A model generated the notes under the pieces. It did no database searches and had not been told where the DNA came from. It saw nothing but the letters and a program-made list of their open reading frames with translations. Positions 4,828 through 16,051 of a stretch of 64,000 nt of DNA are shown here, piece after piece. Each line of letters starts with the position of its first letter. The stretch's first letter is position 1. Source of the stretch: a virus; the IMG/VR virus record IMGVR_UViG_3300044981_000338, positions 1-64,000 of that record; one strand, written 5' to 3'. A program made the translations under genes and the position numbers.

Positions 4828-5091
4828 TCAGATCTGGACGTTCGACTTCACCAACACGTCGCGAAGACTTCGGTCAGGGGCGCTGCCAGCGTACGGCTCT
4901 CCTTGCTGTATGGCAAAGGCCTCGGCTTTGACGAGAACAAGGTAGGGGTCCTCTACCGAAGTCTTGTCTCGAAGCTTGAAGGTGTAGAGCCGCCCGAACT
5001 TGCGGATGACGATGGACACCTCCGTTCTGCACGGCGAGCAGCCGGGAGGCACACCAAACGGCAGGTCGCCGGTGAACAGAAGGGACTTCAC
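4828..5091 (-). CDS. small conserved-looking tail-cluster protein
   Basis: An 87-residue protein beginning with GTG. The start is supported by GGAGG seven bases upstream and by a four-base GTGA overlap with the stop of the tape-measure-like gene. It contains a CSPC pair near residue 20 and beta-strand-rich sequence (VSIVIRKFGRLYTFKLRD). Its place between tape measure and baseplate genes suggests a small baseplate or tail-tip component, but I do not recognise the family. Confidence 0.6.
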   Translation of the reverse strand: MKSLLFTGDLPFGVPPGCSPCRTEVSIVIRKFGRLYTFKLRDKTSVEDPYLVLVKAEAFAIQQGEPYAGSAPDRSLRDVLVKSNVQI

Positions 5092-8000
5092 TTCTTATCC
5101 TCCGGGTTGTCTGTGCCGTTCTTCTTGATCTCGTTCAGTGCGGCCAGCGACAAGGTGTTGCCCTTCACAAGTGCCTCGAGGAACTGGTTGGCCTTATCAC
5201 TGTTCTTCTTCATCTCACCGGCGAGCTTGCCTTCGGGACTACTCTCAAAGGCTTCGCTACGCTTCTTCTCGGCTTCCTGTCCCGCCGCGCTTTCCTTGAT
5301 TCGACGAAGGACCTCGGCGATGGAACCTGCTCCCTTGCCTACGGCTCCCGAAAGTGACGCGACGTTCTCTTCGCTGGCCAAGCCTGCACGACCAAGCAAG
5401 GCCTTCACGTCCTCGGGGCGGGTGAGGTTCAGGTTCTTCAGCTCTTCGGGGGAGAGGGAGATGCCGAGCGAGCGCGCGACAGCTCCCTGTCCTCCGTAGC
5501 GCTTCGACATCGTCATGAACTTCTGCTGCTCGGCGGCTGACCGACTGAGCTCCGCAGCTCCCTCACTTCCTGCGAGCGCCTTGGCTGCCTTTCTCTTCTG
5601 CTCGACAGTCATGTGCTCGAGGATGTCACCACGTCGTGAGGCATCATCAGAGATACTCCCCATGATGGCCCGGTCTGCGTCAGAGCCGGTACCTGTGAAG
5701 GTGCCCTCCTTTTCCGTGATGCCAACCGAGAGGCGGGCGAACTCGAGAGCAGCCCCGCCAAGTGCTGTGAGCTCCTTGGTCTTGGCTCCTGTCAGTCGGC
5801 CGTCGGCGTCGATGATGCCGTGCATGGAGAGCTGGTCCTTCTCCTGTGCAGAGCTGACCATCAGACGTCGACCTTGTTCTGCCAGGTCTTTCCTCTGGCG
5901 TGTGTCGAGCACCGTGGCCATGCCACCAAGCGTAGACTTCAGCTTGTCGAGCGGAACGCCGAGCTCCTTGGCCTTCGCTGCCTGCTGCTCAGGCGTTGGG
6001 TTGCCCACGCTCATGAACGTGGCGAACTTCGCCGCCTGCAACATGTCACGCTTCACTTCCGTCTCAGGGGTGTCCTCTCCGGTCTGGTTGGCGATGTCCT
6101 TCTGCAGCGAAGCCATGGCCTGCTCAGACACCTTGCGGTCCGCGCTGAGCAGCCCTGCGGACAGATCGCGGAAGGCCTCTCCCTTGATGAACCGCCCGGC
6201 GGCTTGTTCTCGCTCGCCGCTGCCCGTGACCCTCCCGATGATGTCGTGGACAAAGCCGCTGGAGGCTGCGCCGAGCAGCCCTCCAAGCACGGGTCCGAGA
6301 CCAGGGAGCATGGAGAGCCCGGCTGTGATGCCTCCCTCGGCCAGCATCTCCTTCACGCTGCCCTTTCTGCCGAACCCGAGTGCCTTGGCGAAGGCGGCGT
6401 TCTCTTCCCCCATGGACCCAAAGCCGGCAGTGCCTTGCTTGGCTAGGATGCCCACCATGCCACCCTCAGGAAGCCCGTAACGCGCGGCGAGACCTGCCTT
6501 GCCCTGAATGCCCTGCGCGCGTTCGTAGTTCGCGAGCAGGCCCACACGCTCGGCGTCAGACTTGCCGCGCAGCTGGTCCTGCATGGCGCGTGCGGCCACC
6601 GTGTTCGGGTCGTTCGGGTTGCCTTTCGCCTGCTCGTTGATGAGCTTCGTGAGACTGTCGACCCGCGCGTCGCCCTCCCCTTCAACCTTCTTCATGGCGT
6701 AGGCCGCCTGGATGAAGTCGGCCTTGCCTCCCTGCGACCCGATGGCCAGGGCGGCTTCGTTGTAGCCCGTAGCCGCAGCGCGCTGCGCAGTCTGGATGCT
6801 CTGTAGCTTCGACTGAATCTGCTGGCTATTCATGCCGCGCGTCTCGAAGCCAGCCTCACGCAGTTGTTCCGCTCCCGTCTTCTGGAAGAGGCCTCCCGTG
6901 TTGAGCGCTGTCGCGAGGTCCTTTGTGGCAACACCACCAACGCCACCTGTACCCATTGCCTGACGCGCACCGCGGTTCAGCAGCGACCCCACACTACCCG
7001 TCGAACCCACACCGAAAGCGCGCGCCGCGGCGCCGCGGCCCTGCGCACCCCCGCTCAGCATGGAGCGGTAGCTGTCATCGATGTCCTTGGAGTACGTCTC
7101 GACGTAGGTGCCGAAGAGCTTGTTGAAGAAGCTGTCGACGGCCTCGCTGCCGGCATTGAAGATGTCCTGCCCAGCCTTCTCGAGCTTGCCGTTGATGAGC
7201 GACTTGGCCTGCTCGAACTTCTGCTTCACGCCTTCAATGCCCTGCCCCTTGCGCGCCGTCGACAAGGCCTGGAAGTACTGGTCCTGCGACGCCGAGCGCC
7301 GCTCGCGCTCGAGGATCTGCGGCATCGCGTTGGCCATCTTCACGGCTTGGTCGACCTCGTCTCGCCCCATGCCGAGCTGACGCTGGGCGAATAGCATCGA
7401 ACGGTCGTCCATGTCGTTGATGTCGACACCCTTGGACGCCGCCCACTCCTGCAGCTGCAGAGCAGGGAGGAACCCACCGAGGCGCTCCATCGCAGCGCCG
7501 CGCAGGCGTCCCTCGTTCCGGATGAAGTTCGCCCGGTTCACCGGCGCGCCCGCACCTGTCACGTGGGCGCGGTCCTGCCGCATCGTCTCCGAGATACTCA
7601 TCCCCCCACTTAGGATCTGCTGGACAGCGTCCTCGTCCAAGGTGCCGTTTTTGCCCGCCATTGAGGCCAGCATCCGACGTCCGCGCCCGCTCTGAAGGAA
7701 CCTGCCTGACGATGCCATCGCACTTGCGGCGAAGGACTGGCGCCCCTCAGCACCCGTCTGCCCTGTGGTGTTGTAGATGTCCTCCTCCGAGAGGACGCCC
7801 ATCTGCTGGGCGGTGCCGATCTGGCTGATGGTGCGGACGCCAGCCATCGCCCCCTGGCGCCCGAGGCCTCCAATGGAACGGGAGATCTGCGAGCCGATGC
7901 TGGCCGCCCCTGTCACCTCGCTGAGTGCGAGCCCACCCGACACGGTCGCCTGACGCGCAGCGGCCGTGAAGCCGACGGCACGGTTCGCCCCGAAGACACC

Positions 8001-8720
8001 CGAGCTCTTGGCTGCCTGGGCGAACTCCATCGCCCCCTCGAGCGTCGTGCCGAGGTCGGTGGCCATGGTCTTCAGGGACTTGACTATCTCCTTGAAACGG
8101 CTGGTGAAGTCCTTGACGTCACGGACCCCTTGGGCGAAGCCCATCTGGCCCATCTTGCCGGCCAGTCCGGAGAGTTCCTTGAAAGAAGCGATCTCACCGC
8201 CGGGGCCGAATTGCTCGGTCATCTCCCGCACGGCGGACCCGATGGAGGTCATGTCCGACCGACTGAAACCGGTCCCCCCCTGCCTGTTCTGGAAGTTGAA
8301 GGAGCTCCGGAGCTGCGCGTTGAGGTTCGACTGCTGGCTGGCCCCCTCGTACATCTGCCCGCCGACGTACGAGACCGCGGCACCTGCCGCCATGAACGGC
8401 AGCGCCACCGCTCCGCCGGCGAGGGCTGCGCCGCCGAGGCCTGCTCCACTACCGAACGCGCTCATCCCTGCCTTCAGCCCCATCGACATGGGGTCGAGGC
8501 CCATGAGGCCCATGGCGCCGCTCATGAGGGGCGCGCCGACGGCTCCGGCCATCCCCATGGCGCTGCCCATAGCGCGGTCGCCACCGGCACCACGGTAGCC
8601 ACCCCCACCCCCATACACCCCGGCGCCTTGTCCAATGGCGGACGCGTACTGGAGGTTGTTCATCGCCTGGCTCTGGAAAGAGCCGTTCATGGCGGCGATC
8701 TCGGTGCTGCTGAGCGGCAT
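5088..8720 (-). CDS. putative tape measure protein
   Basis: At 1210 residues this is the longest protein in the window. It is Gly/Ala/Met/Gln-rich, mostly helical, with hydrophobic glycine-rich segments near residues 60-120 (GLGGAALAGGAVALPFMAAG) and again near 780-830. Alternating helical and small-residue stretches and position just before baseplate genes fit a tape measure, which sets tail length and occupies the tube lumen. If it follows the family rule of about 1.5 angstrom per residue, the tail would be roughly 180 nm (inference). No peptidase or muramidase motif is obvious. The start has no clear Shine-Dalgarno sequence, so a later internal start is possible. Confidence 0.6.
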   Translation of the reverse strand: MPLSSTEIAAMNGSFQSQAMNNLQYASAIGQGAGVYGGGGGYRGAGGDRAMGSAMGMAGAVGAPLMSGAMGLMGLDPMSMGLKAGMSAFGSGAGLGGAALAGGAVALPFMAAGAAVSYVGGQMYEGASQQSNLNAQLRSSFNFQNRQGGTGFSRSDMTSIGSAVREMTEQFGPGGEIASFKELSGLAGKMGQMGFAQGVRDVKDFTSRFKEIVKSLKTMATDLGTTLEGAMEFAQAAKSSGVFGANRAVGFTAAARQATVSGGLALSEVTGAASIGSQISRSIGGLGRQGAMAGVRTISQIGTAQQMGVLSEEDIYNTTGQTGAEGRQSFAASAMASSGRFLQSGRGRRMLASMAGKNGTLDEDAVQQILSGGMSISETMRQDRAHVTGAGAPVNRANFIRNEGRLRGAAMERLGGFLPALQLQEWAASKGVDINDMDDRSMLFAQRQLGMGRDEVDQAVKMANAMPQILERERRSASQDQYFQALSTARKGQGIEGVKQKFEQAKSLINGKLEKAGQDIFNAGSEAVDSFFNKLFGTYVETYSKDIDDSYRSMLSGGAQGRGAAARAFGVGSTGSVGSLLNRGARQAMGTGGVGGVATKDLATALNTGGLFQKTGAEQLREAGFETRGMNSQQIQSKLQSIQTAQRAAATGYNEAALAIGSQGGKADFIQAAYAMKKVEGEGDARVDSLTKLINEQAKGNPNDPNTVAARAMQDQLRGKSDAERVGLLANYERAQGIQGKAGLAARYGLPEGGMVGILAKQGTAGFGSMGEENAAFAKALGFGRKGSVKEMLAEGGITAGLSMLPGLGPVLGGLLGAASSGFVHDIIGRVTGSGEREQAAGRFIKGEAFRDLSAGLLSADRKVSEQAMASLQKDIANQTGEDTPETEVKRDMLQAAKFATFMSVGNPTPEQQAAKAKELGVPLDKLKSTLGGMATVLDTRQRKDLAEQGRRLMVSSAQEKDQLSMHGIIDADGRLTGAKTKELTALGGAALEFARLSVGITEKEGTFTGTGSDADRAIMGSISDDASRRGDILEHMTVEQKRKAAKALAGSEGAAELSRSAAEQQKFMTMSKRYGGQGAVARSLGISLSPEELKNLNLTRPEDVKALLGRAGLASEENVASLSGAVGKGAGSIAEVLRRIKESAAGQEAEKKRSEAFESSPEGKLAGEMKKNSDKANQFLEALVKGNTLSLAALNEIKKNGTDNPEDKK

Positions 8721-8780
8721 CGGGCGCCAGTAACCCTACCACGAGGGGCCGGGCTCGGTTCCTCAATTCCTGAGCCAAAA

Positions 8781-8797
8781 GGGGCATAAGAGGGATG
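8781..8797 (+). promoter_or_regulatory. ATAAGA-N4-TG element, copy 1
   Basis: The bases read GGGGC-ATAAGA-GGGA-TG, with ATAAGA at 8786-8791. The element lies 15-26 bases before the lipoprotein ATG and overlaps the edge of its ribosome binding site. It belongs to a six-member family on the plus strand only. This copy lacks the GCAAAAG box found upstream of three other copies. Confidence 0.5.
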
Positions 8798-8811
8798 AAG
8801 GAGGCAATTCC

Positions 8812-9459
8812 ATGCAAGCAAACAAGGTTCTTCTGGTGGCGGTACTTCTCTTGGTCAGTGGTTGCGGGGTTGCCGCGGGAGGCACGGGGGACAACCCGTC
8901 AAGCGGCAGCAGCGGTGGAAGTAGCAGCGGCAGCGTCGGGTCCGGCCAGTGCTGCTCGAACCCCGGTGCGGTGGGTCCCCAAGGTCCTGCCGGTCCGATG
9001 GGTGCCCAAGGTCCAGCAGGGGCAACCGGCGCTCGAGGAGCAACAGGAGCCACCGGTCCCCAAGGTCCCGCAGGCAGCCCCGGATCTGACGGCCAGGCCG
9101 GTGCGCAGGGTCCCGCGGGCGCCGCGGGGACGCCGGGCGCGGCGGGCGCGCAAGGACCGCAGGGTCCCGCCGGCGCGGCGGGCGCACCTGGCCTGCTCAC
9201 CAGCAAGGCGAGCATCTACACGGTGACGACCGTCAGCGTCGGTGGCACCAACGGCACGGGCACCGCCGCTGCGAGTTGCAAAGGTGTGAACGACATCCTG
9301 CTCAACGGCGGCTGCTCGGCGGAGGACTTCGGGGTGATCCTCTCGGAACCGACGAACAACCCTGCCGGGACGGCGAGCTACTGGGAGTGTGACGTGAACC
9401 CCGGCATCTCGCCGGTGCCCTCGGTCACGGCCATGGCGACTTGCATCACGGTCCCGTGA
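8812..9459 (+). CDS. collagen-like repeat lipoprotein
   Basis: A 215-residue protein. Residues 1-18 are a lipoprotein signal peptide with lipobox VSGC, the modified Cys being residue 18. A Gly/Ser linker follows, then 26 uninterrupted Gly-X-Y triplets (about residues 52-129) of the bacterial collagen type, rich in GPQ, GPA and GAT. An 85-residue C-terminal domain with several Cys (SCKG, GGCS, WECD, TCIT) may be disulfide-bonded. The start is fixed by AAGGAGG eight bases upstream. Known bacterial collagen-like proteins form trimeric stalks displaying a head; here the stalk would be lipid-anchored in the infected host envelope. It sits on the strand opposite the tape measure and carries its own promoter-like element, the layout of a moron. 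Function in phage biology is unknown; envelope modification or superinfection exclusion are inferences. Confidence 0.85.
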
Positions 9460-9477
9460 GGAAGAAAGGAGAACAAC

Positions 9478-9738
9478 ATGATCAGCATCCTGTGCGTGAG
9501 GTCGGTGGCGAAGGCCTTCTTGGCACTCGACCGTCCCCTCGAACGGCTGCACAGGCTCACCAGCCTGCTCGCAGGCACACGCGAAGTGAAACCGGTGAGC
9601 ATCGGAATCGTGGTCGACCGCGAGCAGCTCCATCGCATCGTCACACACCCGGACGTCGTCGCTGGGTTGGAGCTGGCCGAGACGCTACGGCGCAAAGGCG
9701 TGCTGCATGCCTGCTCTTCTTGTGGAGCGGTCGCGTAG
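9478..9738 (+). CDS. uncharacterised small protein
   Basis: An 86-residue protein preceded by AAAGGAG, 18 bases after the lipoprotein stop, so probably in one operon with it. The N-terminal 30 residues are amphipathic-helical. Residues 40-60 (VSIGIVVDREQLHRIV) look like a strand-helix unit, and the protein ends with a CSSCG pair. No membrane span or known domain is recognised. Confidence 0.6.
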   Translation: MISILCVRSVAKAFLALDRPLERLHRLTSLLAGTREVKPVSIGIVVDREQLHRIVTHPDVVAGLELAETLRRKGVLHACSSCGAVA

Positions 9739-9803
9739 CAAACACGAAGGGCACAAGGGAACAAGAACATAGGGGCGCACTGCCCACCGTAGGAGGCACG
9801 GCC

Positions 9804-10256
9804 ATGGAAGGACAAGAACCTGGACTGCGCGCGCAGCTCAGTGCGCAGCAGAGACGGCAGCTGGAGTACCTCGGACTGACCTCGGAGCAAAAGCCGAGAG
9901 AATCCGGGGATAAGAACAGTGGAAGGACAGTAGTTCCGACCACCCAAACCAAGAAGGAGGACATCCACATGGAAGCCACGACTCAGGAGACGAACAGGAC
10001 GCGCAACGAAGAGAACAGCAGCCACCCGGCGGTGGACGCCGTCGAGCGGAACACGAACCGCATGGCCAACGCCGCCGAGGCTCTGGTCGGCAGGTTCGAC
10101 CGGCAGCACAGCTTCAAGGCCGAGGCCATCCGCGTTGGCGCGACGGCCGTGGCCACGGGCATCGTGACCGGCCTCGTCGTCGTTGGCATGCAGGCGCTGC
10201 TGATGCCGGACACGGTCAAGGTCGAGCAGGTCGTTCCCGGCACGCCGAAGAAGTAG
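9804..10256 (+). CDS. long form of small membrane protein (alternative in-frame start)
   Basis: This frame has two starts, each with an excellent ribosome site. The ATG at 9804 follows AGGAGG by eight bases and would give a 150-residue protein. The second ATG at 9969 gives the 95-residue form annotated separately. The extra 55 N-terminal residues are polar and Gln/Arg-rich (LRAQLSAQQRRQLEYLG), probably helical and then disordered. The ATAAGA element at 9910 lies inside this extension, so the long form could come from read-through transcripts and the short form from the internal promoter. The long form may not be made. Confidence 0.35.
   Translation: MEGQEPGLRAQLSAQQRRQLEYLGLTSEQKPRESGDKNSGRTVVPTTQTKKEDIHMEATTQETNRTRNEENSSHPAVDAVERNTNRMANAAEALVGRFDRQHSFKAEAIRVGATAVATGIVTGLVVVGMQALLMPDTVKVEQVVPGTPKK
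9887..9921 (+). promoter_or_regulatory. GCAAAAG / ATAAGA-N4-TG element, copy 2
   Basis: GCAAAAG at 9887-9893 is followed after 16 bases by ATAAGA (9910-9915), then four bases and TG. The spacing matches copies 3 and 4 to within one base and resembles a -35/-10 arrangement. The likely target is the ATG at 9969, giving a leader of about 45 bases. Confidence 0.6.
9969..10256 (+). CDS. small single-span membrane protein
   Basis: A 95-residue protein starting at the ATG that follows AAGGAGG by eight bases. The first 55 residues are polar and helical (AVERNTNRMANAAEALVGRF). One hydrophobic span (about residues 58-82, VGATAVATGIVTGLVVVGMQ) is followed by a short polar tail ending in KK. An N-in or N-out single-pass protein of this size could be a holin accessory, an antiholin or a host-membrane effector; none can be chosen from sequence. 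It is bounded by promoter element copy 2 upstream and an intrinsic terminator at 10271. Its ribosome site is perfectly complementary over 12 bases to the predicted small RNA transcribed just downstream. Confidence 0.7.
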   Translation: MEATTQETNRTRNEENSSHPAVDAVERNTNRMANAAEALVGRFDRQHSFKAEAIRVGATAVATGIVTGLVVVGMQALLMPDTVKVEQVVPGTPKK

Positions 10257-10270
10257 GTCGGCTGGGTGAG

Positions 10271-10297
10271 AGTGCTGCCCTTCGGGGCGGCACTTTT
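10271..10297 (+). terminator. intrinsic terminator after membrane-protein gene
   Basis: A ten-base-pair stem (AGTGCTGCCC / GGGCGGCACT, one G-T wobble) closes a TTCG tetraloop and is followed by TTTTC. It lies 15 bases after the stop at 10256. This is a textbook factor-independent terminator for plus-strand transcription. Confidence 0.85.
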
Positions 10298-10319
10298 CAC
10301 TTAGCCTCTCAGGGGTTCA

Positions 10320-10354
10320 GCAAAAGCGCCTCACGCCGCGGCATAAGACTACTG
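10320..10354 (+). promoter_or_regulatory. GCAAAAG / ATAAGA-N4-TG element, copy 3
   Basis: GCAAAAG (10320-10326), 16 bases, then ATAAGA (10343-10348), four bases and TG. Unlike the other copies, no start codon with a ribosome site follows closely. The next strong signal is a terminator at 10414-10461, so this element probably drives a short non-coding transcript. Confidence 0.6.
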
Positions 10355-10461
10355 AAGGGTCCCACCGCTCCCAAAGGGCCTCCTCCTTCTTGTCTGCGCG
10401 GGATGCCTTCACTCGGCGCTCATCCCCCTGGCCGTGGGGGGTGGGCGCCGTTCTTTTTTTT
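10355..10461 (+). ncRNA. predicted small RNA with anti-ribosome-site segment
   Basis: This predicted transcript runs from just after element copy 3 to the T-tract of a strong terminator, about 105 nt. It contains the pyrimidine run CCTCCTCCTTCTTG (10379-10392). Of this, TCCTCCTTCTTG is the exact complement of CAAGAAGGAGGA at 9950-9961, the ribosome site of the small membrane protein gene. The 3' part is the terminator hairpin, the usual architecture of bacterial base-pairing RNAs. The island 10257-10558 has no convincing gene, which supports a non-coding role. Ribosome sites are purine-rich, so chance complementarity of 7-8 bases is expected; 12 is more than expected but not proof. Confidence 0.45.
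10414..10461 (+). terminator. strong intrinsic terminator
   Basis: A 15-base-pair stem (10414-10428 with 10436-10450, two G-T wobbles) with a seven-base loop is followed by TTCTTTTTTTTA. It lies between promoter-like element copy 3 and the gene starting at 10559, separating the predicted small RNA from that gene. Confidence 0.85.
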
Positions 10462-10558
10462 AGGGTCTGTGCCTACTGCTCCCCACTTGACATCTTCTTT
10501 TTTACCCTTGCGGTGCCGCGCGACAGAACGTACATCTACAAGAAGAAAGGAGGACGCC

Positions 10559-10822
10559 ATGAACACGATGACCACGGAACTCGACAACGACAGGTACGAC
10601 GCTGCCAACGAAGCCGTCCTCTTCTGTCTGACCTTCCTCTCGGAACGGGAAGAGCACACGGCTGCCAGCTGCATCGAAGGGTCACCGACCAGCGAACGGG
10701 TCGCATCGCATACAACCGCCTCTTGGCGGCGCACCGGTGCACACGTGACGTTGCGGCGAAGTACACGCTCAGCACCGCAATGCACACGGTCGAGCGCGCG
10801 CTTCACGTACAGGCTCTCCTAG
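10559..10822 (+). CDS. small helical protein with apparent internal frameshift
   Basis: The ATG at 10559 follows AAAGGAGG by six bases. The first 41 residues (MNTMTTELDNDRYDAANEAV onward to CIEG) look like an ordinary helical phage protein. After that this frame becomes Ser/Thr/Arg-rich and unlike protein. The -1 frame, from about 10680 to a stop at 10831-10833, continues plausibly with GRIAYNRLLAAHRCTRDVAA and ends VQALLAAS. A one-base change near GAAGGGTCA (10677-10685) would give a single 90-95 residue helical protein. No classical slippery heptamer is present, so a sequence error or real mutation is as likely as programmed shifting. Function unknown. Confidence 0.5.
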   Translation: MNTMTTELDNDRYDAANEAVLFCLTFLSEREEHTAASCIEGSPTSERVASHTTASWRRTGAHVTLRRSTRSAPQCTRSSARFTYRLS

Positions 10823-10834
10823 CTGCGAGCTGAC

Positions 10835-10870
10835 GCAAAAGTCTCCTCCTAGCGCGGCATAAGACCTCTG
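10835..10870 (+). promoter_or_regulatory. GCAAAAG / ATAAGA-N4-TG element, copy 4
   Basis: GCAAAAG (10835-10841), 17 bases, ATAAGA (10859-10864), four bases, TG. It directly precedes the gene at 10909 and is embedded between the arms of a perfect inverted repeat (10841-10854 and 10894-10907). Confidence 0.6.
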
Positions 10871-10907
10871 GCGGACACCAGAGTGTCTGCCGACGCTAGG
10901 AGGAGAC
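10841..10907 (+). promoter_or_regulatory. 14-bp perfect inverted repeat around promoter and RBS
   Basis: The left arm GTCTCCTCCTAGCG (10841-10854) is the exact reverse complement of the right arm (10894-10907), which contains AGGAGGAGA, the ribosome site of the gene at 10909. A smaller nested hairpin lies at 10870-10891 (GGCGGACA / TGTCTGCC, one wobble). In a transcript entering from upstream the ribosome site would be locked in a long stem. A transcript begun at element copy 4 would lack the left arm and leave it free. The repeat could also be a DNA operator. Confidence 0.6.
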
Positions 10908-10908
10908 C

Positions 10909-11589
10909 ATGCGTTGTTTTCAGGTCATGGAAGAAGTGAAGCAGGGCATCCCCGTACTCATCGGGAGTGGAGAAGAAGGGCACGTCGCCCCATACCTACC
11001 AACGCCACCAGGCTGCACCATGCGGCTCCTGCTCGACACGCAGATCACAGACTGCGTCAAGGACTGCTTCAACACCGATCCCGACTATCCCCACGCACTC
11101 AAAGACGTGAACGTCGAGTTCGGCGACGGCTTCATCCTGTTCAGAGGGAAGAAGAAGCACGGAAGGCTACACGACAGGCAGTGCTTGGTACGCGTAGTGA
11201 CTGCCGGGGGTGTTGGCGGCAAGGTAAGGCTTACCTCGAACTCGTACGTGACGCAGCTGAGAGGGCGCAAGGTTCCGGAAGTCCAGAGGGCGTACAACGC
11301 CTTCCCGGACGATGGTGTGCTCACCTTCTGCACAGCTGAAGAGCTCGAGCGCATCAACGAGGGGGTCGCTTACCTCGACGTCGTGCTCGTCATGCACAAG
11401 GGAGCGAGCTTCCGCATACAGCGCAACGGTGCACTGGAGGGGGCCAGTCCCTGGATGTCAATTCAGTGGACAGGTGAAGGTATCTTCATGGACAACCGTG
11501 ATGGTCGCTTCGACCAAAACGGCAACAGGGTCTACCGACGGTCGGCTGCTCCCTTAGTAGAGGCAGCTGTACCAGCCGCGGCTGAGTGA
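10909..11589 (+). CDS. uncharacterised 226-residue protein with regulated RBS
   Basis: The start is fixed by AGGAGG six bases upstream. The sequence is beta-rich and soluble, with no signal peptide or membrane span. Recognisable patches are LLLDTQITDCVKDCF (residues 41-55), VRVVTAGGVGGKVRLTSNSY and AEELERINEGVAYLDVVLVM. The C-terminal 20 residues are Ala/Pro-rich. I do not recognise the family. Its own promoter-like element and the inverted repeat covering its ribosome site suggest expression timed differently from its neighbours. The last 58 bases overlap the convergent gene 11532-11903. Confidence 0.65.
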   Translation: MRCFQVMEEVKQGIPVLIGSGEEGHVAPYLPTPPGCTMRLLLDTQITDCVKDCFNTDPDYPHALKDVNVEFGDGFILFRGKKKHGRLHDRQCLVRVVTAGGVGGKVRLTSNSYVTQLRGRKVPEVQRAYNAFPDDGVLTFCTAEELERINEGVAYLDVVLVMHKGASFRIQRNGALEGASPWMSIQWTGEGIFMDNRDGRFDQNGNRVYRRSAAPLVEAAVPAAAE

Positions 11590-11903
11590 GTAGGGTGGGG
11601 GGTGGAGCCGTTGGCTGCCCCCTTTTCCTTAGCCACCGGCTGGTCCTTCTTGGGAGCCGCCTTGCGGTCCGGAGACACACCCTCTATGCGCTTGCCGATC
11701 TGCTCGAGCAGCGCGCGCACGGTGCGCTGACAGGGCCCACAGAGGTCCTCGAAGGAGACGACGAACTCCTTGCCTTCAGCGTCCTGGAGTCTCGCCGAGA
11801 ACGCGTGGCTCGGAGAGGGAACCGTCTCCGGCTCCACCCCCGGCCGCGTCTCCACCCTCTGGCACCTCGAACACTCGATCTCCACGACTTGTTTCCGGGC
11901 CAT
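11532..11903 (-). CDS. small CxxC zinc-binding protein
   Basis: A 123-residue protein. Residues 7-17 carry CSRCQRVE and residues 53-57 LCGPC, two CxxC pairs spaced as in a split zinc ribbon around a beta domain (FSARLQDAEGKEFVVSFEDL). The C-terminal 45 residues are a Lys/Ala/Pro/Thr disordered tail. The ATG at 11903 has AAGGAG nine bases upstream and is preferred over the ATG three codons earlier. The gene overlaps 11776-12087 by 128 bases in another frame, unusually long. Similar short zinc proteins are common in large phages with unknown roles. Confidence 0.65.
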   Translation of the reverse strand: MARKQVVEIECSRCQRVETRPGVEPETVPSPSHAFSARLQDAEGKEFVVSFEDLCGPCQRTVRALLEQIGKRIEGVSPDRKAAPKKDQPVAKEKGAANGSTPHPTHSAAAGTAASTKGAADRR

Positions 11904-12087
11904 CGCCTTCATCTCCTTCGTTGTGCGTCTTGAAGTACAAGTAGGTCTTCAAGATCGCGATTTCGGATCGAACGAGTGGGTCGTTGCCCTTGGCGCGGAA
12001 CCACGTCTCGAACGCACGGATGTCTTCCTCGACCGTGCTCTCCAGCGTCTTGCCTTCTTCTACAGCTCCTACTACCACCGTCAGCAT
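11776..12087 (-). CDS. uncharacterised small protein
   Basis: A 103-residue protein whose ATG follows AGGAGG by seven bases. Residues 1-55 are protein-like (TVEEDIRAFETWFRAKGNDP, then SEIAILKTYLYF). The remaining residues overlap the next gene's frame and are Gly/Glu/Asp-rich, so the tail is probably non-essential or an accident of overlap. Divergent from the plus-strand gene at 12133, with a 45-base shared intergenic region that holds element copy 5. Confidence 0.55.
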   Translation of the reverse strand: MLTVVVGAVEEGKTLESTVEEDIRAFETWFRAKGNDPLVRSEIAILKTYLYFKTHNEGDEGDGPETSRGDRVFEVPEGGDAAGGGAGDGSLSEPRVLGETPGR

Positions 12088-12123
12088 CACAAATCCTCCT
12101 GCGGTTCGGGGATAAGAAGCATG
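12088..12123 (+). promoter_or_regulatory. ATAAGA-N4-TG element, copy 5
   Basis: CGGGG-ATAAGA-AGCA-TG with ATAAGA at 12112-12117. At the -35-like distance (17 bases) stands CACAAAT, only partly like GCAAAAG. It lies between two divergent genes, 16 bases before the ATG at 12133. Confidence 0.5.
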
Positions 12124-12132
12124 GAGGTCCCC

Positions 12133-12375
12133 ATGTTGAAAGGCTTTGAACTCTTCCACGTTCTCGAGACACTTGATGCGCAGGAGCGCGAAGCGACGGC
12201 CGCCCTACACCAATGCCAGGCGCGCCCACGGCGTGAGCGTCTACCGCAGCTGCAAGCGGCCATCGACAGGCACGAACTGGAGCTCGTCAAGGAGCTGAAT
12301 CGAGTGCGACGTCTGAAGGCCACGACCACGGTGCGGCACTCGGTGGCTGTGTGGTCTGAGGGAGGTAGTTGCTGA
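12133..12375 (+). CDS. small coiled-coil-like protein
   Basis: An 80-residue protein. The ATG at 12133 follows GGAGG by five bases and is preferred over the ATG at 12121, which lies at the expected transcription start. The sequence is strongly helical with heptad-like spacing (LETLDAQEREATAALHQC, LQAAIDRHELELVKELNR), resembling small DNA- or protein-binding helical hairpins. A terminator follows directly. Confidence 0.6.
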   Translation: MLKGFELFHVLETLDAQEREATAALHQCQARPRRERLPQLQAAIDRHELELVKELNRVRRLKATTTVRHSVAVWSEGGSC

Positions 12376-12377
12376 CG

Positions 12378-12413
12378 AATAGCGCGCGCCCGCGAGGGCT
12401 GCGCGCTATTATT
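12378..12413 (+). terminator. intrinsic terminator
   Basis: AATAGCGCGC-CCC pairs with GGG-GCGCGCTATT around a GCGA loop, with a single bulge, followed by ATTT. It lies two bases after the stop of the preceding gene and ends just before the acetyltransferase start. Confidence 0.75.
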
Positions 12414-12422
12414 TAGCCTCCC

Positions 12423-12845
12423 ATGCTTCGACAAGCACTCGACCGCGACATCCCAGGCATCCTCCGGCTCGAGGGGATGCTCTTCTCCAACTCGATGAGC
12501 GAGGAGATGATCGTGCGCGAGCTGCAGGTGGGGCAAGGCTTCGTGCTCGAGGCTGCGACGGAGAACCCCGTGCTCGGCTACATCCTGGTCCGAGACGACG
12601 GCTATCTGCTCGACATTACCCGGCTTGCCGTCGACCCCCAGCAGCAGCGTTCTGGTGTGGGCACCGAACTTCTTCGCCACGTGCTGGCAAAGAACCGGAC
12701 GACGGTTCTCACGGTCAAGAAGAGCAACCATCGCGCGTTCCAGCTCTACACGAAGCACGGCTTCGTGATCACGGGACACTTCATCGAGGAGCGCGCGTGG
12801 GCAATGCGCCGGGACGTGGAGCTTTTGGAGCGCCGAGCGGGGTGA
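12423..12845 (+). CDS. GNAT-family N-acetyltransferase
   Basis: A 140-residue single-domain GNAT enzyme, which transfers acetyl from acetyl-CoA to an amine. Motif A is visible at residues 66-83 (ITRLAVDPQQQRSGVGTE), with the Q/R-x-x-G-x-G/A pyrophosphate-binding loop. Residues 98-115 (KKSNHRAFQLYTKHGFVI) match the motif B helix and the 'Y-x-k-x-G-F' ending typical of RimI-like proteins. Substrate is unknown; phage GNATs may act on host proteins or aminoglycosides, neither of which is evident here. There is no ribosome binding site: the ATG follows a terminator hairpin by only 12 bases, so translation may be weak or leaderless. It converges on and overlaps the gene 12781-13017 by 65 bases. Confidence 0.85.
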   Translation: MLRQALDRDIPGILRLEGMLFSNSMSEEMIVRELQVGQGFVLEAATENPVLGYILVRDDGYLLDITRLAVDPQQQRSGVGTELLRHVLAKNRTTVLTVKKSNHRAFQLYTKHGFVITGHFIEERAWAMRRDVELLERRAG

Positions 12846-13017
12846 CCGTGTACGCAGCGCCACAGCCGCCGCACTTCATCACCTGCTTGCCGTCAGGCAG
12901 TCGCTGCGATGTGCAGAGGTTCTGGCACTTCATGCAACGCTGACGACCAACACCGCCCTCAGGTGTCTTCTGGAAGACGTTGCCTTTGTTGTCCTTGGTG
13001 CCGCGGATGATCTTCAT
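12781..13017 (-). CDS. zinc-ribbon protein
   Basis: A 78-residue protein with CMKCQNLC (residues 28-35) and CGGCGAAY (49-56), a four-cysteine zinc ribbon with a short beta turn between, followed by a Pro/Arg-rich tail. GGAGG lies six bases before the ATG, which overlaps the upstream stop by one base (TGATG). Such ribbons often bind nucleic acid or RNA polymerase, but nothing here identifies a partner. Confidence 0.65.
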   Translation of the reverse strand: MKIIRGTKDNKGNVFQKTPEGGVGRQRCMKCQNLCTSQRLPDGKQVMKCGGCGAAYTVTPLGAPKAPRPGALPTRAPR

Positions 13018-13439
13018 CAGTCGCCTCCGAAGATGATGGGCTCGCCCTCGTTCGCCGCCGCGATGACGTGCTCTTTCACGTGGGTCTTCTCGGCTTCCGC
13101 CTTCGCTTCGGCCGCCGCGAGCTCCTCGATGTACTCCTTGAGGTAGGCATTGAAGTTGATGGCGTTGGTCTCGGTGACAGGGATGTGCCCCTTGATACCG
13201 AACCGCAGCTCGTTGAACAGGTCCTGGGCCACCCGCCGCAGCACTTCTTGCTGCGCCTCGATCATCTGGATGCCGTCGGAGAAGGCCTTCGTGTTGGTGT
13301 TGAAGGCGTCTTCGAGCTGCTTCACGCGCTCGGTGAGCGCCTGCATGGCAGCGAAGACGCTAGGTTGATTCCCCGCCTGTGGGCGGTGGGGTCTTGCTGC
13401 GCTTGCGCTTCTTGCCTTCTTTCGGCGCTGCTGCGTCAT
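13017..13439 (-). CDS. coiled-coil protein with basic N-terminus
   Basis: A 140-residue protein. The first 35 residues are Arg/Lys/Ser/Ala-rich and probably disordered. Residues 38-85 (MQALTERVKQLEDAFNTN and on) form a coiled coil, and a second helical region lies at 105-125. The ATG at 13439 (after AAAGGA) lies inside the upstream gene, an 80-base overlap; the later Met near residue 38 is an alternative start. Function unknown. Confidence 0.55.
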   Translation of the reverse strand: MTQQRRKKARSASAARPHRPQAGNQPSVFAAMQALTERVKQLEDAFNTNTKAFSDGIQMIEAQQEVLRRVAQDLFNELRFGIKGHIPVTETNAINFNAYLKEYIEELAAAEAKAEAEKTHVKEHVIAAANEGEPIIFGGD

Positions 13440-13725
13440 TCGACTGGGTCCTTTGCTTGGGAACGAGTTCGTCTCGATGGATGGTGAGGAAGGCGTCGCG
13501 CTCATCGAGCTCCATGCCTTGCTTCTCCATGATGAAGTTCATGCAGTAGAGGATGGACTCCTGCGCCACGATACGGTCGGCGGGTTCCACCTGCTCACAG
13601 ATGACGGTCTTCTTCGCCTCGGTGTCACCGTCGACGTAGTCCGTCTTGATGATGCGCAGGATGTGCTCGAGGAAAGAGACGTTGTGCGCCCTGAACTTCC
13701 TCTTTTTTTCGTTGCTTTCACTCAT
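13360..13725 (-). CDS. uncharacterised small protein
   Basis: A 121-residue helical protein with charged ends (start MSESNEKKRKFRAHN, end rich in Lys/Arg/Pro/Thr). A four-base ATGA overlap with the upstream gene shows translational coupling. The middle (EPADRIVAQESILYCMNFIM) is amphipathic helical. No known motif seen. Confidence 0.6.
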   Translation of the reverse strand: MSESNEKKRKFRAHNVSFLEHILRIIKTDYVDGDTEAKKTVICEQVEPADRIVAQESILYCMNFIMEKQGMELDERDAFLTIHRDELVPKQRTQSNDAAAPKEGKKRKRSKTPPPTGGEST

Positions 13726-14384
13726 GCGGATAGCAGCGCCTTGAAGCGTCCCAGTAGGTTAGCACCAGAAGAGGTGTCCTTGATGATGTTGCGCAGAGGA
13801 TAGATGAAGACCTCGCGTTTGGCGCGCGCCACCGAGAGCTGCTCGCCCATCAACTGCTTGCTCTGCTCAAGGGTGGCGGCCTTGCGCAAGTCGATCTTCG
13901 GGACCTTCACGTAGATGTCCGCGTTGTGACCGAGGCGCACGAAGTACTTGTAAAGAAGCCGGGCCCAGTTGTCGGTCGACAGGCGTGCGAAGATCTCTCC
14001 ATGCACTTGCGTGCCCTTCCATACCTTCTGGCAGGAGGGGCAGACGAGGTGGCCGTAACCCTGCGACGCATCGGGGATGAGGCCCTGGCAGTCGCTCACA
14101 CCCAAAGTCTTACCGGGGCACAAGTAGATCTTGCAGTCGCCGCCGCCATGCAGCTTGGCGCCGCTCTCCCAGAAGGAGACCGCGCCGGCGTGGGCGGCCC
14201 TACCCGTACGTCGGCTGTTGAAGAACAGCTCGATCTTGTACTTGGCGATCTTGCGAGCGGCGAGCTCCTTCTCGAGCACAATCATTCGCTGCTTGAGCGT
14301 CTCAATGTCCTCCTCGGACAGAGTAGGGGCTGCCTCGATCGGGTTGTCCTCCCCGTACTTGACCTGTTGTGTGATGACCGGCAC
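13722..14384 (-). CDS. zinc-binding protein of unknown function
   Basis: A 220-residue protein starting with GTG, seven bases after GGGGAGG. After an N-terminal coiled coil (residues 20-50), a beta-rich centre carries Cys at DCKIYLCPG and DCQGL, then LVCPSCQKVW, a probable treble-clef or zinc-ribbon knuckle. The C-terminus is helical and basic. The layout resembles small phage nucleic-acid-binding proteins, but the family is not recognised. Confidence 0.6.
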   Translation of the reverse strand: MPVITQQVKYGEDNPIEAAPTLSEEDIETLKQRMIVLEKELAARKIAKYKIELFFNSRRTGRAAHAGAVSFWESGAKLHGGGDCKIYLCPGKTLGVSDCQGLIPDASQGYGHLVCPSCQKVWKGTQVHGEIFARLSTDNWARLLYKYFVRLGHNADIYVKVPKIDLRKAATLEQSKQLMGEQLSVARAKREVFIYPLRNIIKDTSSGANLLGRFKALLSA

Positions 14385-14387
14385 GGC

Positions 14388-14864
14388 TCAACCTCCCCGC
14401 TGCTTCATTGCGACAGCTTCGGGGCCCACCTTTACTGTACCAGAAGGCCCGGCGCCTCGACGGCCCCCCGCCGTGTTGTTCCTGTCCGAGTCGACACCGC
14501 CTAGCGGAATCTCCATGACCTCTGCGCGTGCCGAGGGAGAGGTCTTGATGATGTTCGCGATGTCCGCGTAGTGCCCCGCAATGCCCTCGCCTTGAAGAAG
14601 GATGCGCCAGGCGTACACCATACGGTTAGTTTCCTTCTTGATGAAGTACGACTTCGAGAGGTCGACCTTCCATGGTCGACCGCGCTCCATCGCTTCGAGA
14701 AGGCGCCACATCACGATCTTCCAGTTGTTGCCGTTCAGCCCAAGGCGGCCGTCAGGGATGCGCCCGAGAAGACGCAGCTGTCCCGGCGTCTCACTCTGCG
14801 CGACCACCTCGAACCCCACCTTGGCGCGTAGCGCCGCGATGAGCTCCTTAGCTGTGGTCGCCAT
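14388..14864 (-). CDS. uncharacterised protein
   Basis: A 158-residue protein whose ATG is preceded by GGAGG at short spacing. The first 75 residues form a compact alpha/beta unit (KELIAALRAKVGFEVVAQ, GNNWKIVMWRLLEAM). The last 40 are Gly/Arg-rich and disordered. It overlaps the upstream gene by 17 bases. Function unknown. Confidence 0.6.
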   Translation of the reverse strand: MATTAKELIAALRAKVGFEVVAQSETPGQLRLLGRIPDGRLGLNGNNWKIVMWRLLEAMERGRPWKVDLSKSYFIKKETNRMVYAWRILLQGEGIAGHYADIANIIKTSPSARAEVMEIPLGGVDSDRNNTAGGRRGAGPSGTVKVGPEAVAMKQRGG

Positions 14865-15333
14865 GGGCCTCCACCGTCGACGCCGTGCAGACCATGAAGG
14901 CCTTCTTGTCTCCGAAGAACAGCTCGCGTACGTCCTTGAAGAACACACGCTTGCCGTCTTCCTCCAAATACGAGAGGCCGTTGGTCAAGAACGTCTCGAT
15001 GGAGTCACTAACCCACGCGATGATGTACTCGCCGAGCGGGGTCTTGCCGTACGTGACGTCGACATCGGTGTCCTGCTGCCCACTGTCCAGATGGAGAAGA
15101 CCGGTGCGTGTCGTCGAAAGGTACTGACGAACGGCCTCGAGGTCGGTCTCCCGAACAAGGACGTACTCCTCGCTGTTCAATGCCGACACGATGAGCGACG
15201 ACGCCGTGTCAAGGTCGACCGGCTCCTCGGCTGCTTCCTCCCCCTTCAGCGCCGGGTTGAAGCGCTGCATCTCCTTGAGCATCGCGGGTGAGACGACACC
15301 GGCCTTGAGCACAGCCTTGGTCAGAGGGGTCAT
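14848..15333 (-). CDS. uncharacterised protein
   Basis: A 161-residue acidic protein with a helical N-terminus (TKAVLKAGVVSPAMLKEMQR) and a mixed alpha/beta body (GEYIIAWVSDSIETFLTNGL). It overlaps the upstream stop by four bases (ATGA). No known domain is recognised. Confidence 0.6.
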   Translation of the reverse strand: MTPLTKAVLKAGVVSPAMLKEMQRFNPALKGEEAAEEPVDLDTASSLIVSALNSEEYVLVRETDLEAVRQYLSTTRTGLLHLDSGQQDTDVDVTYGKTPLGEYIIAWVSDSIETFLTNGLSYLEEDGKRVFFKDVRELFFGDKKAFMVCTASTVEAHGDHS

Positions 15334-15872
15334 TCTTTCACCTGCTGCATGGCAACCTTGTAGCTCTTCTTCGTGTCGATGAGAGCCGCGGCCTTGGAAT
15401 ACGCCGCGCAGAGAATGAGCACGTGGTCCTCGATGAGGCGGTCCGTGAAGAAGGGTACGCCGAAAAACTCGTCATGCGTCACGCACTCGATGCCCGTCCA
15501 GCCCTTGTACCACTGCCACAAGTGCGTGTTGGCGCCGCCAACAAAGGCCACAGGATTCAGCTGGTCGACCGACATCCGATGAAAGAGCCGGCCGACGACT
15601 ACGGCAGCGTTCTCTTGCTCCGAGGGAATTTCCAGCACCTCGCTGTTTCGGATGATGGAGTGGGGCTGCAGCGTCTCGAAGTCGACCGAAAGAGGCTCCG
15701 ACTGCTCGCCGCCTCGAACGAAGCGCCGGTAGGTGACCTTGCCACGAGCATCGACCGAGACCGACTGCACCCTCGACTGCTTGAGGATGGCCTCGATGCT
15801 CTTGAGAAACCCGGTCACCCCTACGTTCTTGGGGACCTCGATAGACCCTTCGACTTCCTCGTACTCCGCCAT
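15330..15872 (-). CDS. uncharacterised protein
   Basis: A 180-residue protein with a beta-rich N-terminal half (VQSVSVDARGKVTYRRFV, FETLQPHSIIRNSEVLEI) and a helical C-terminal half. Its ATG shares one base with the stop of the upstream ribbon-helix-helix gene (TGATG). No motif recognised. Confidence 0.6.
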   Translation of the reverse strand: MAEYEEVEGSIEVPKNVGVTGFLKSIEAILKQSRVQSVSVDARGKVTYRRFVRGGEQSEPLSVDFETLQPHSIIRNSEVLEIPSEQENAAVVVGRLFHRMSVDQLNPVAFVGGANTHLWQWYKGWTGIECVTHDEFFGVPFFTDRLIEDHVLILCAAYSKAAALIDTKKSYKVAMQQVKE

Positions 15873-16051
15873 CAGACTTGCTCCTCGTGATCACGCACAC
15901 CGACGCGTCGCTCCATCGCATCGGACTCTACCAGCTGCTGCAAAAACTGCGTGATGACTGCGGTCAGAGTAGTGTGCCTGCGCTTCACGACGCGGGTCGC
16001 CTGCTCCTTGAGCCGGTCATCGATACGCAGCTGCAGCCGTCCTTCTCTCAT
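15872..16051 (-). CDS. ribbon-helix-helix (Arc/CopG-type) DNA-binding protein
   Basis: A short gene of 59 codons. Residues 4-12 (GRLQLRIDD) form the alternating beta strand of a ribbon-helix-helix fold. Helix one follows (RLKEQATRVVKRR), then a turn with HTTLTAV, and helix two (VITQFLQQLVES). The family dimerises and inserts the paired strand into the DNA major groove; members act as repressors or antitoxins. The start overlaps the upstream stop (ATGA) and the stop overlaps the next start (TGATG), so it is firmly embedded in the operon. No toxin-like partner is evident, so phage transcriptional regulation is the simpler reading. Confidence 0.7.
   Translation of the reverse strand: MREGRLQLRIDDRLKEQATRVVKRRHTTLTAVITQFLQQLVESDAMERRVGVRDHEEQV

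Follow-up and report, generated by a model that had tools for sequence, protein, structure and literature searches.

To our knowledge, few trans-acting small RNAs (sRNAs) of large lytic phages have been assigned a phage target. In the c4 RNA of phages P1 and P7, complementary stretches placed in loops pair with the ribosome site of the target and block translation, and base pairing is also how the sar RNA of P22 and the OOP RNA of lambda repress genes of their phages (PMC12197685). A review of T4 states that no small trans-acting RNA from that phage has been functionally characterised and asks for candidates from its relatives (PMC3014915). Control in cis is known from T4 gene e: its ribosome site is masked in transcripts that read through from upstream but not in those begun at the late promoter (PMC3014915).

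The DNA analysed here (the window) comprises positions 1 to 64,000 of IMG/VR record IMGVR_UViG_3300044981_000338 and is part of the 170,766-base record of a large uncultivated phage. Between the genes gpM and gene S lies a predicted sRNA of about 105 nt that the virus probably uses to turn two neighbouring genes, gpM and gpH, down during infection (Table 1). Like c4 RNA of P1/P7, the predicted sRNA has an anti-Shine-Dalgarno stretch in or beside a loop that would pair with target ribosome sites (PMC12197685). Unlike c4, which acts on an antirepressor in immunity, it is a unit apart from its proposed targets, with a promoter and a terminator of its own, and is flanked by these two different genes. 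The c4 RNA comes from the transcript of the target itself and sar from the strand opposite its target, whereas the predicted sRNA shares its strand with gpM and gpH. It differs likewise from sar and OOP, which are antisense to their targets, in that its complementarity is short, as in trans-encoded sRNAs. By analogy, it may work like c4 and other phage antisense RNAs, yet from the same strand and with its own promoter and terminator.

The RNA had no match above the gathering score of any Rfam family, c4 included. The best sub-threshold covariance-model matches were to the Burkholderia sRNAs ncS035 (RF02870; 15.8 bits, E = 0.09) and BcKCsr2 (RF02883; 12.7 bits, E = 0.86), far under the gathering scores of 79 and 40, and the RNA is not a member of either family.

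The nearest relatives of the window phage (G000) are IMG/VR phages, and among named phages even the closest are only about 26-28% identical to it in the putative major capsid protein. A search of phage records with the window DNA returned no similar DNA. Searches of viral_contigs and genome_contigs with three baits (gpH, gpM and the zinc-ribbon-like protein encoded downstream) yielded no phage beyond the known relatives. A DNA pattern scan (promoter + GAAGG + CCTCC) gave, among the matches listed, G029 and G007 again and no clear new ortholog. Relatives with a counterpart of the unit are G029, G006, G007 and G008.

Table 1. Features of the gpM-gpH locus, in window coordinates
Feature	Position	Strand	Basis
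gpM promoter (copy 2), phage-type, inside longer ORF 9804-10256	9887..9916	+	promoter pattern
gpM ribosome site CAAGAAGGAGGA, likely sRNA target in window phage	9950..9961	+	12-base match
gpM, 95 aa, small protein with C-terminal hydrophobic segment	9969..10256	+	sequence
gpM terminator hairpin	10271..10297	+	fold
sRNA promoter (copy 3), phage-type, GCAA...N16...GGCATAAGA	10320..10348	+	PWM score 25.5
Predicted sRNA, ~105 nt	10354..10458	+	start from promoter consensus, end from T-tract
sRNA element CTCCTCCT, complementary to gpH SD AGGAGGAG	10380..10387	+	net -6.9 kcal/mol
sRNA element TCCTCCTTCTTG, complementary to gpM SD, 12 bp	10381..10392	+	net -11.1 kcal/mol
Intrinsic terminator of sRNA, 15-bp stem and T-tract	10414..10461	+	terminator scan
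gene S promoter, TTGC-N19-TAC, 3' of sRNA terminator	10508..10533	+	6/6 close orthologs
gene S, frameshifted versus orthologs	10559..10822	+	ortholog comparison
gpH promoter (copy 4), phage-type	10835..10864	+	promoter pattern
Left arm GTCTCCTCCTAGCG inside gpH promoter	10841..10854	+	inverted repeat
Right arm and gpH ribosome site CGCTAGGAGGAGAC, likely sRNA target	10894..10907	+	inverted repeat, sRNA match
gpH, conserved protein	10909..11589	+	orthologs; AlphaFold model

Promoter, terminator and neighbouring genes

The sequence-only reading had placed a third copy of a promoter element ahead of a terminator, with no gene between them, and this arrangement was confirmed. The -35-like GCAAAAG begins at 10320 and GGCATAAGA occupies 10340-10348; the pattern GGSATAAGANNNNYGNARG has four matches in the window, against 0.00 expected. 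The stem at 10414-10450 holds 15 pairs, 12 of them G-C, and is followed by TTCTTTTTTTT, a long T-tract, making this the strongest of the terminators found in 5000-16000. Within the unit, the ATG at 10403 has no Shine-Dalgarno sequence (SD) and its frame continues through the terminator. Its own promoter, its own terminator and the lack of an ORF are the general features of a trans-encoded sRNA. The ends of the RNA were set from the promoter consensus (10354) and the T-tract (10458).

The word GGSATAAGAA occurs about 100 times in the records of 31 relatives, compared with 7 times for a reversed control. A weight matrix (PWM) was built from 102 sites in five phages, giving GCAA, about 16 bases, GGNATAAGA and then TGRAGG at the likely transcription start. 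At a score threshold of 12, it matched 38 sites in the record of the window phage and 2 in its reverse. The promoter of copy 3 is a real, family-wide phage element. Because neither a sigma-70 region 2 domain nor a sigma factor for the class was found in the record, we infer no more than that GCAA-N16-GGNATAAGA is probably a middle or late promoter. Leaders begun at promoters of this class often open with a hairpin at the start, ahead of the SD, both in the record and in relatives.

Upstream, the terminator hairpin proposed for gpM was recovered as a strong fold (-30.1 kcal/mol, z = -7.8), but its T-tract is short. The start proposed for gpM at 9969 has an SD, although it is nested in frame in a longer ORF from 9804 that has an SD of its own. 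Both in-frame starts have good SDs and promoter copy 2 lies between them; G029, G006 and G004 likewise have an open in-frame extension upstream.

Downstream, the unit lies on the strand of gene S, about 100 nt 5' of it, and contains UCCUCCUU, which is able to pair with the gene S SD. The region could on this basis be a leader or attenuator of gene S, with no sRNA at all and with the terminator at 10414-10450 governing read-through. However, TTGC-N19-TAY occurs 49-55 bases before gene S, after the terminator, in 6/6 close orthologs (random 95-mers, 0.0024). Since gene S has this conserved promoter of its own, the RNA is not taken to be its leader; moreover, no conserved alternative anti-terminator was seen, and G004 has gene S without the unit. 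A leader function is considered very improbable, and an independent sRNA remains the preferred reading.

Two side observations concern this region. In gene S of the window phage (10559-10833), near 10680, the conserved C-terminal part lies in another frame when compared with five orthologs, which would reflect either a broken gene or an assembly error. The word TTAGC tends to follow terminator hairpins in the record and its relatives, most weakly in G007 and G000; a strong hairpin lies just 5' of TTAGC in 16-52% of cases, versus 10-16% for control words.

Counterparts of the unit in related phages

The order gpM, unit, gene S, gpH is also found in G029, G006, G007 and G008. In G000, G029, G007 and G008, a promoter, a structured RNA and a terminator occupy the same slot without an ORF. 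The sRNA promoters of the three relatives score 28.5 (G029), 35.3 (G007) and 23.2 (G008), the last of these (GGGACAAG) although it was outside the seed of the PWM; in all four phages an ORF-free gap of about 35-70 nt leads to a strong terminator. In each of the four records this is the sole strong promoter with a terminator and no gene, a few near-threshold matches being regarded as background. In G006 the RNA and the terminator are present, but no promoter is recognisable (score 2.6).

The RNA of the window phage folds at -55.3 kcal/mol (z = -4.1), and those of G029 and G006 have z = -5.3 and -5.5; the CCUCC is exposed, in or beside a loop. The five sRNA sequences have diverged past alignment. 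As their alignment was uninformative, no covariance model was built, and homology rests on position and anatomy, by both of which the unit is conserved in five phages, as a trans-encoded sRNA should be. The unit is absent in G004/G005 and in the more distant G010, G027, G028 and G034. In G004/G005 the slot holds another ORF (L157 699-983) that by eye resembles a GIY-YIG endonuclease, and a mobile gene may have taken the place of the sRNA there.

The unalignable sequence, the loss of the promoter in G006 and the lack of the unit in several relatives would all be explained if promoter and terminator were a non-functional leftover, stranded by gene loss, with complementarity arising by chance. 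This is improbable in view of the same slot in five diverged phages, the strong folds, promoter scores of 23-35 in four phages and complementarity above chance in shuffles, ortholog ranking and permutations (see below). The independent small-RNA unit is thus well supported from sequence, by its promoter family, its terminator, the synteny across five phages and the conserved promoter that the downstream gene has to itself, and we judge it likely that an independent phage-made RNA of about 105 nt is produced.

Complementarity to the gpM and gpH ribosome sites

As had been noted from the sequence alone, TCCTCCTTCTTG (10381-10392) is complementary at all 12 positions to 9950-9961, the good SD CAAGAAGGAGGA that lies 7 bases 5' of the ATG at 9969. 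Throughout the 170,766-base record, the 12-mer has only one other copy on the + strand (160214) and its complement occurs at 9950 only. When the RNA was shuffled with its dinucleotides preserved, 0.08% of the shuffles gave a run of at least 12 against the gpM ribosome site (p ~0.0008, window phage). Among the 272 ribosome sites of the window phage, that of gpM ranks first by length of perfect run but 36th by plain RNAduplex energy, so that pairing prediction over all sites favours gpM by the former measure and not by the latter. Since plain RNAduplex ranking misses both gpM and gpH in G000, matches were assessed instead by run length, by ungapped energy and by permutation. Complementarity to the gpM site is above chance in the window phage but weak in the relatives (p = 0.087 without the window phage).

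Complementarity, weak for gpM in the relatives, persists and co-varies at gpH, where it is still significant once the window phage is left out (p = 0.0006). The sequence-only reading had missed this gene, which is likely the second and better-conserved target. Perfect runs in G000, G029, G006, G007 and G008 are 8, 8, 6, 10 and 7 for gpH and 12, 7, 5, 6 and 8 for gpM, the gpH match of G006 being 6 bp only. Net energies including opening costs are, in the same order, -6.9, -10.0, -6.1, -10.6 and -3.2 kcal/mol for gpH and -11.1, -2.1, -3.9, -6.5 and -7.8 kcal/mol for gpM. Within the sRNA, the gpH element of G000, G029 and G007 either precedes the gpM element on its 5' side or overlaps it.

Every GGAGG of an SD matches every CCUCC, and the informative bases are for that reason the flanks only. 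Ortholog groups with members in four phages or more, about 87 in all, were ranked by SD complementarity, each member against the RNA of its own phage and with gpH listed twice: gpH ranked 1, gpM 3 and gene S 32. When partners were permuted, the observed run sum was reached in 1/120 (gpH), 2/120 (gpM) and 102/120 (gene S) arrangements, and in 2/14,400 for gpH and gpM jointly; scored by ungapped energy, the support for gpH was weaker (6/120). As the sample is five phages and gpH was chosen post hoc, after three neighbours had been checked, the evidence for gpH is regarded as good, not conclusive. Complementarity to a ribosome site together with covariation, as expected of a trans-encoded sRNA, is in these five phages clear for gpH and comes mainly from the window phage for gpM.

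A real phage sRNA might also carry its CCUCC loop as a general anti-SD, or aim it at mRNAs of the host or at other mRNAs of the phage; its matches to gpM and gpH would then be by-products of shared SD cores. GGAGG is common to all SDs, other ribosome sites in each phage equal or beat those of gpH and gpM in plain duplex energy (several in G000 pair better), and the ortholog group 120274-120930 ranks with gpH. The flanks, however, co-vary with gpH and gpM, whereas gene S, which has the most canonical SD (AAAGGAGGA), shows no such covariation, and the joint permutation points the same way. We consider such a general role rather unlikely, and prefer gpH and gpM as targets.

No family match naming a function, antirepressor included, was obtained for gpM or gpH. 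For gpH, neither Pfam nor PHROG gave a match, and its AlphaFold model, although confident (pLDDT 84), had no structural match at E <= 0.001. A single PDB sequence match of gpH, to a T4 lysozyme chain (E = 0.17), was taken as chance.

Read-through hairpin at gpH and proposed control

GTCTCCTCCTAGCG sits between the two elements of the gpH promoter and is exactly complementary to CGCTAGGAGGAGAC, the gpH ribosome site; the two form the 14-bp arms of an inverted repeat (10841-10907). In the predicted fold of the read-through RNA (-56 kcal/mol, z = -8.1) the ribosome site is hidden; the promoter-started RNA lacks the left arm. Because the left arm lies within the promoter region, the site would be hidden in read-through RNA only. 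In this it is like the hairpins of T4 genes e, soc, 49 and I-TevI (PMC3014915). As at gene e, the left arm lies 5' of the transcription start and the right arm holds the SD. The gpH arms co-vary in relatives, with 2/40,320 (runs) and 1/40,320 (energy) permutations in eight phages. Judged from sequence, gpH carries a T4 gene-e-like cis hairpin predicted to mask its ribosome site in read-through RNA only. Unlike the T4 hairpins, which belong to TATAAATA late promoters and other genes, the gpH device adjoins an sRNA.

Inverted repeats between promoter spacer and SD are not general for the promoter class (mean run 4.40, versus 4.22 in swaps); they are strong at gpH and a few other promoters. On the minus strand at G000:C1:165637, a promoter-like site GGGTAAAAGA has a spacer, ACTCCTCGGG, complementary to the downstream SD CCCGAGGAGG, possibly a second read-through hairpin.

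The following course of events is proposed. Early transcripts that begin at the gene S promoter and read through would yield no gpH. Once the phage promoters fire, gpM mRNA, gpH mRNA and the sRNA would appear together, the sRNA being transcribed from the GCAA-N16-GGNATAAGA class and stopped by its intrinsic terminator. Its 5' domain is predicted to fold such that the CCUCC anti-SD, with variable flanks, sits in or next to a loop. From there it would pair in trans with the ribosome sites of gpH and gpM and block 30S binding, which would lower or time the translation of these genes of the same promoter class. That an independent RNA of about 105 nt from this promoter class represses translation of both genes in trans we hold to be about an even bet, and repression by the predicted sRNA of gpH, of gpM or of both is an equally balanced call. 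More tentatively, and as the less probable outcome, this lytic phage family may use a two-target sRNA in which adjoining elements co-evolve with the ribosome sites of the two flanking genes, with gpH controlled both in cis and in trans.

The locus offers a concrete and testable candidate for a trans-acting sRNA with a co-varying predicted target, and as that target also carries a cis hairpin, the way in which RNA control is shared between cis and trans could be examined in a single phage. If the proposal is true, anti-SD sequences would control the gpH site twice, the promoter-embedded arm acting in cis on read-through transcripts and the sRNA in trans on those begun at the promoter, and the phage would have a timed on-then-off pulse made wholly of RNA.
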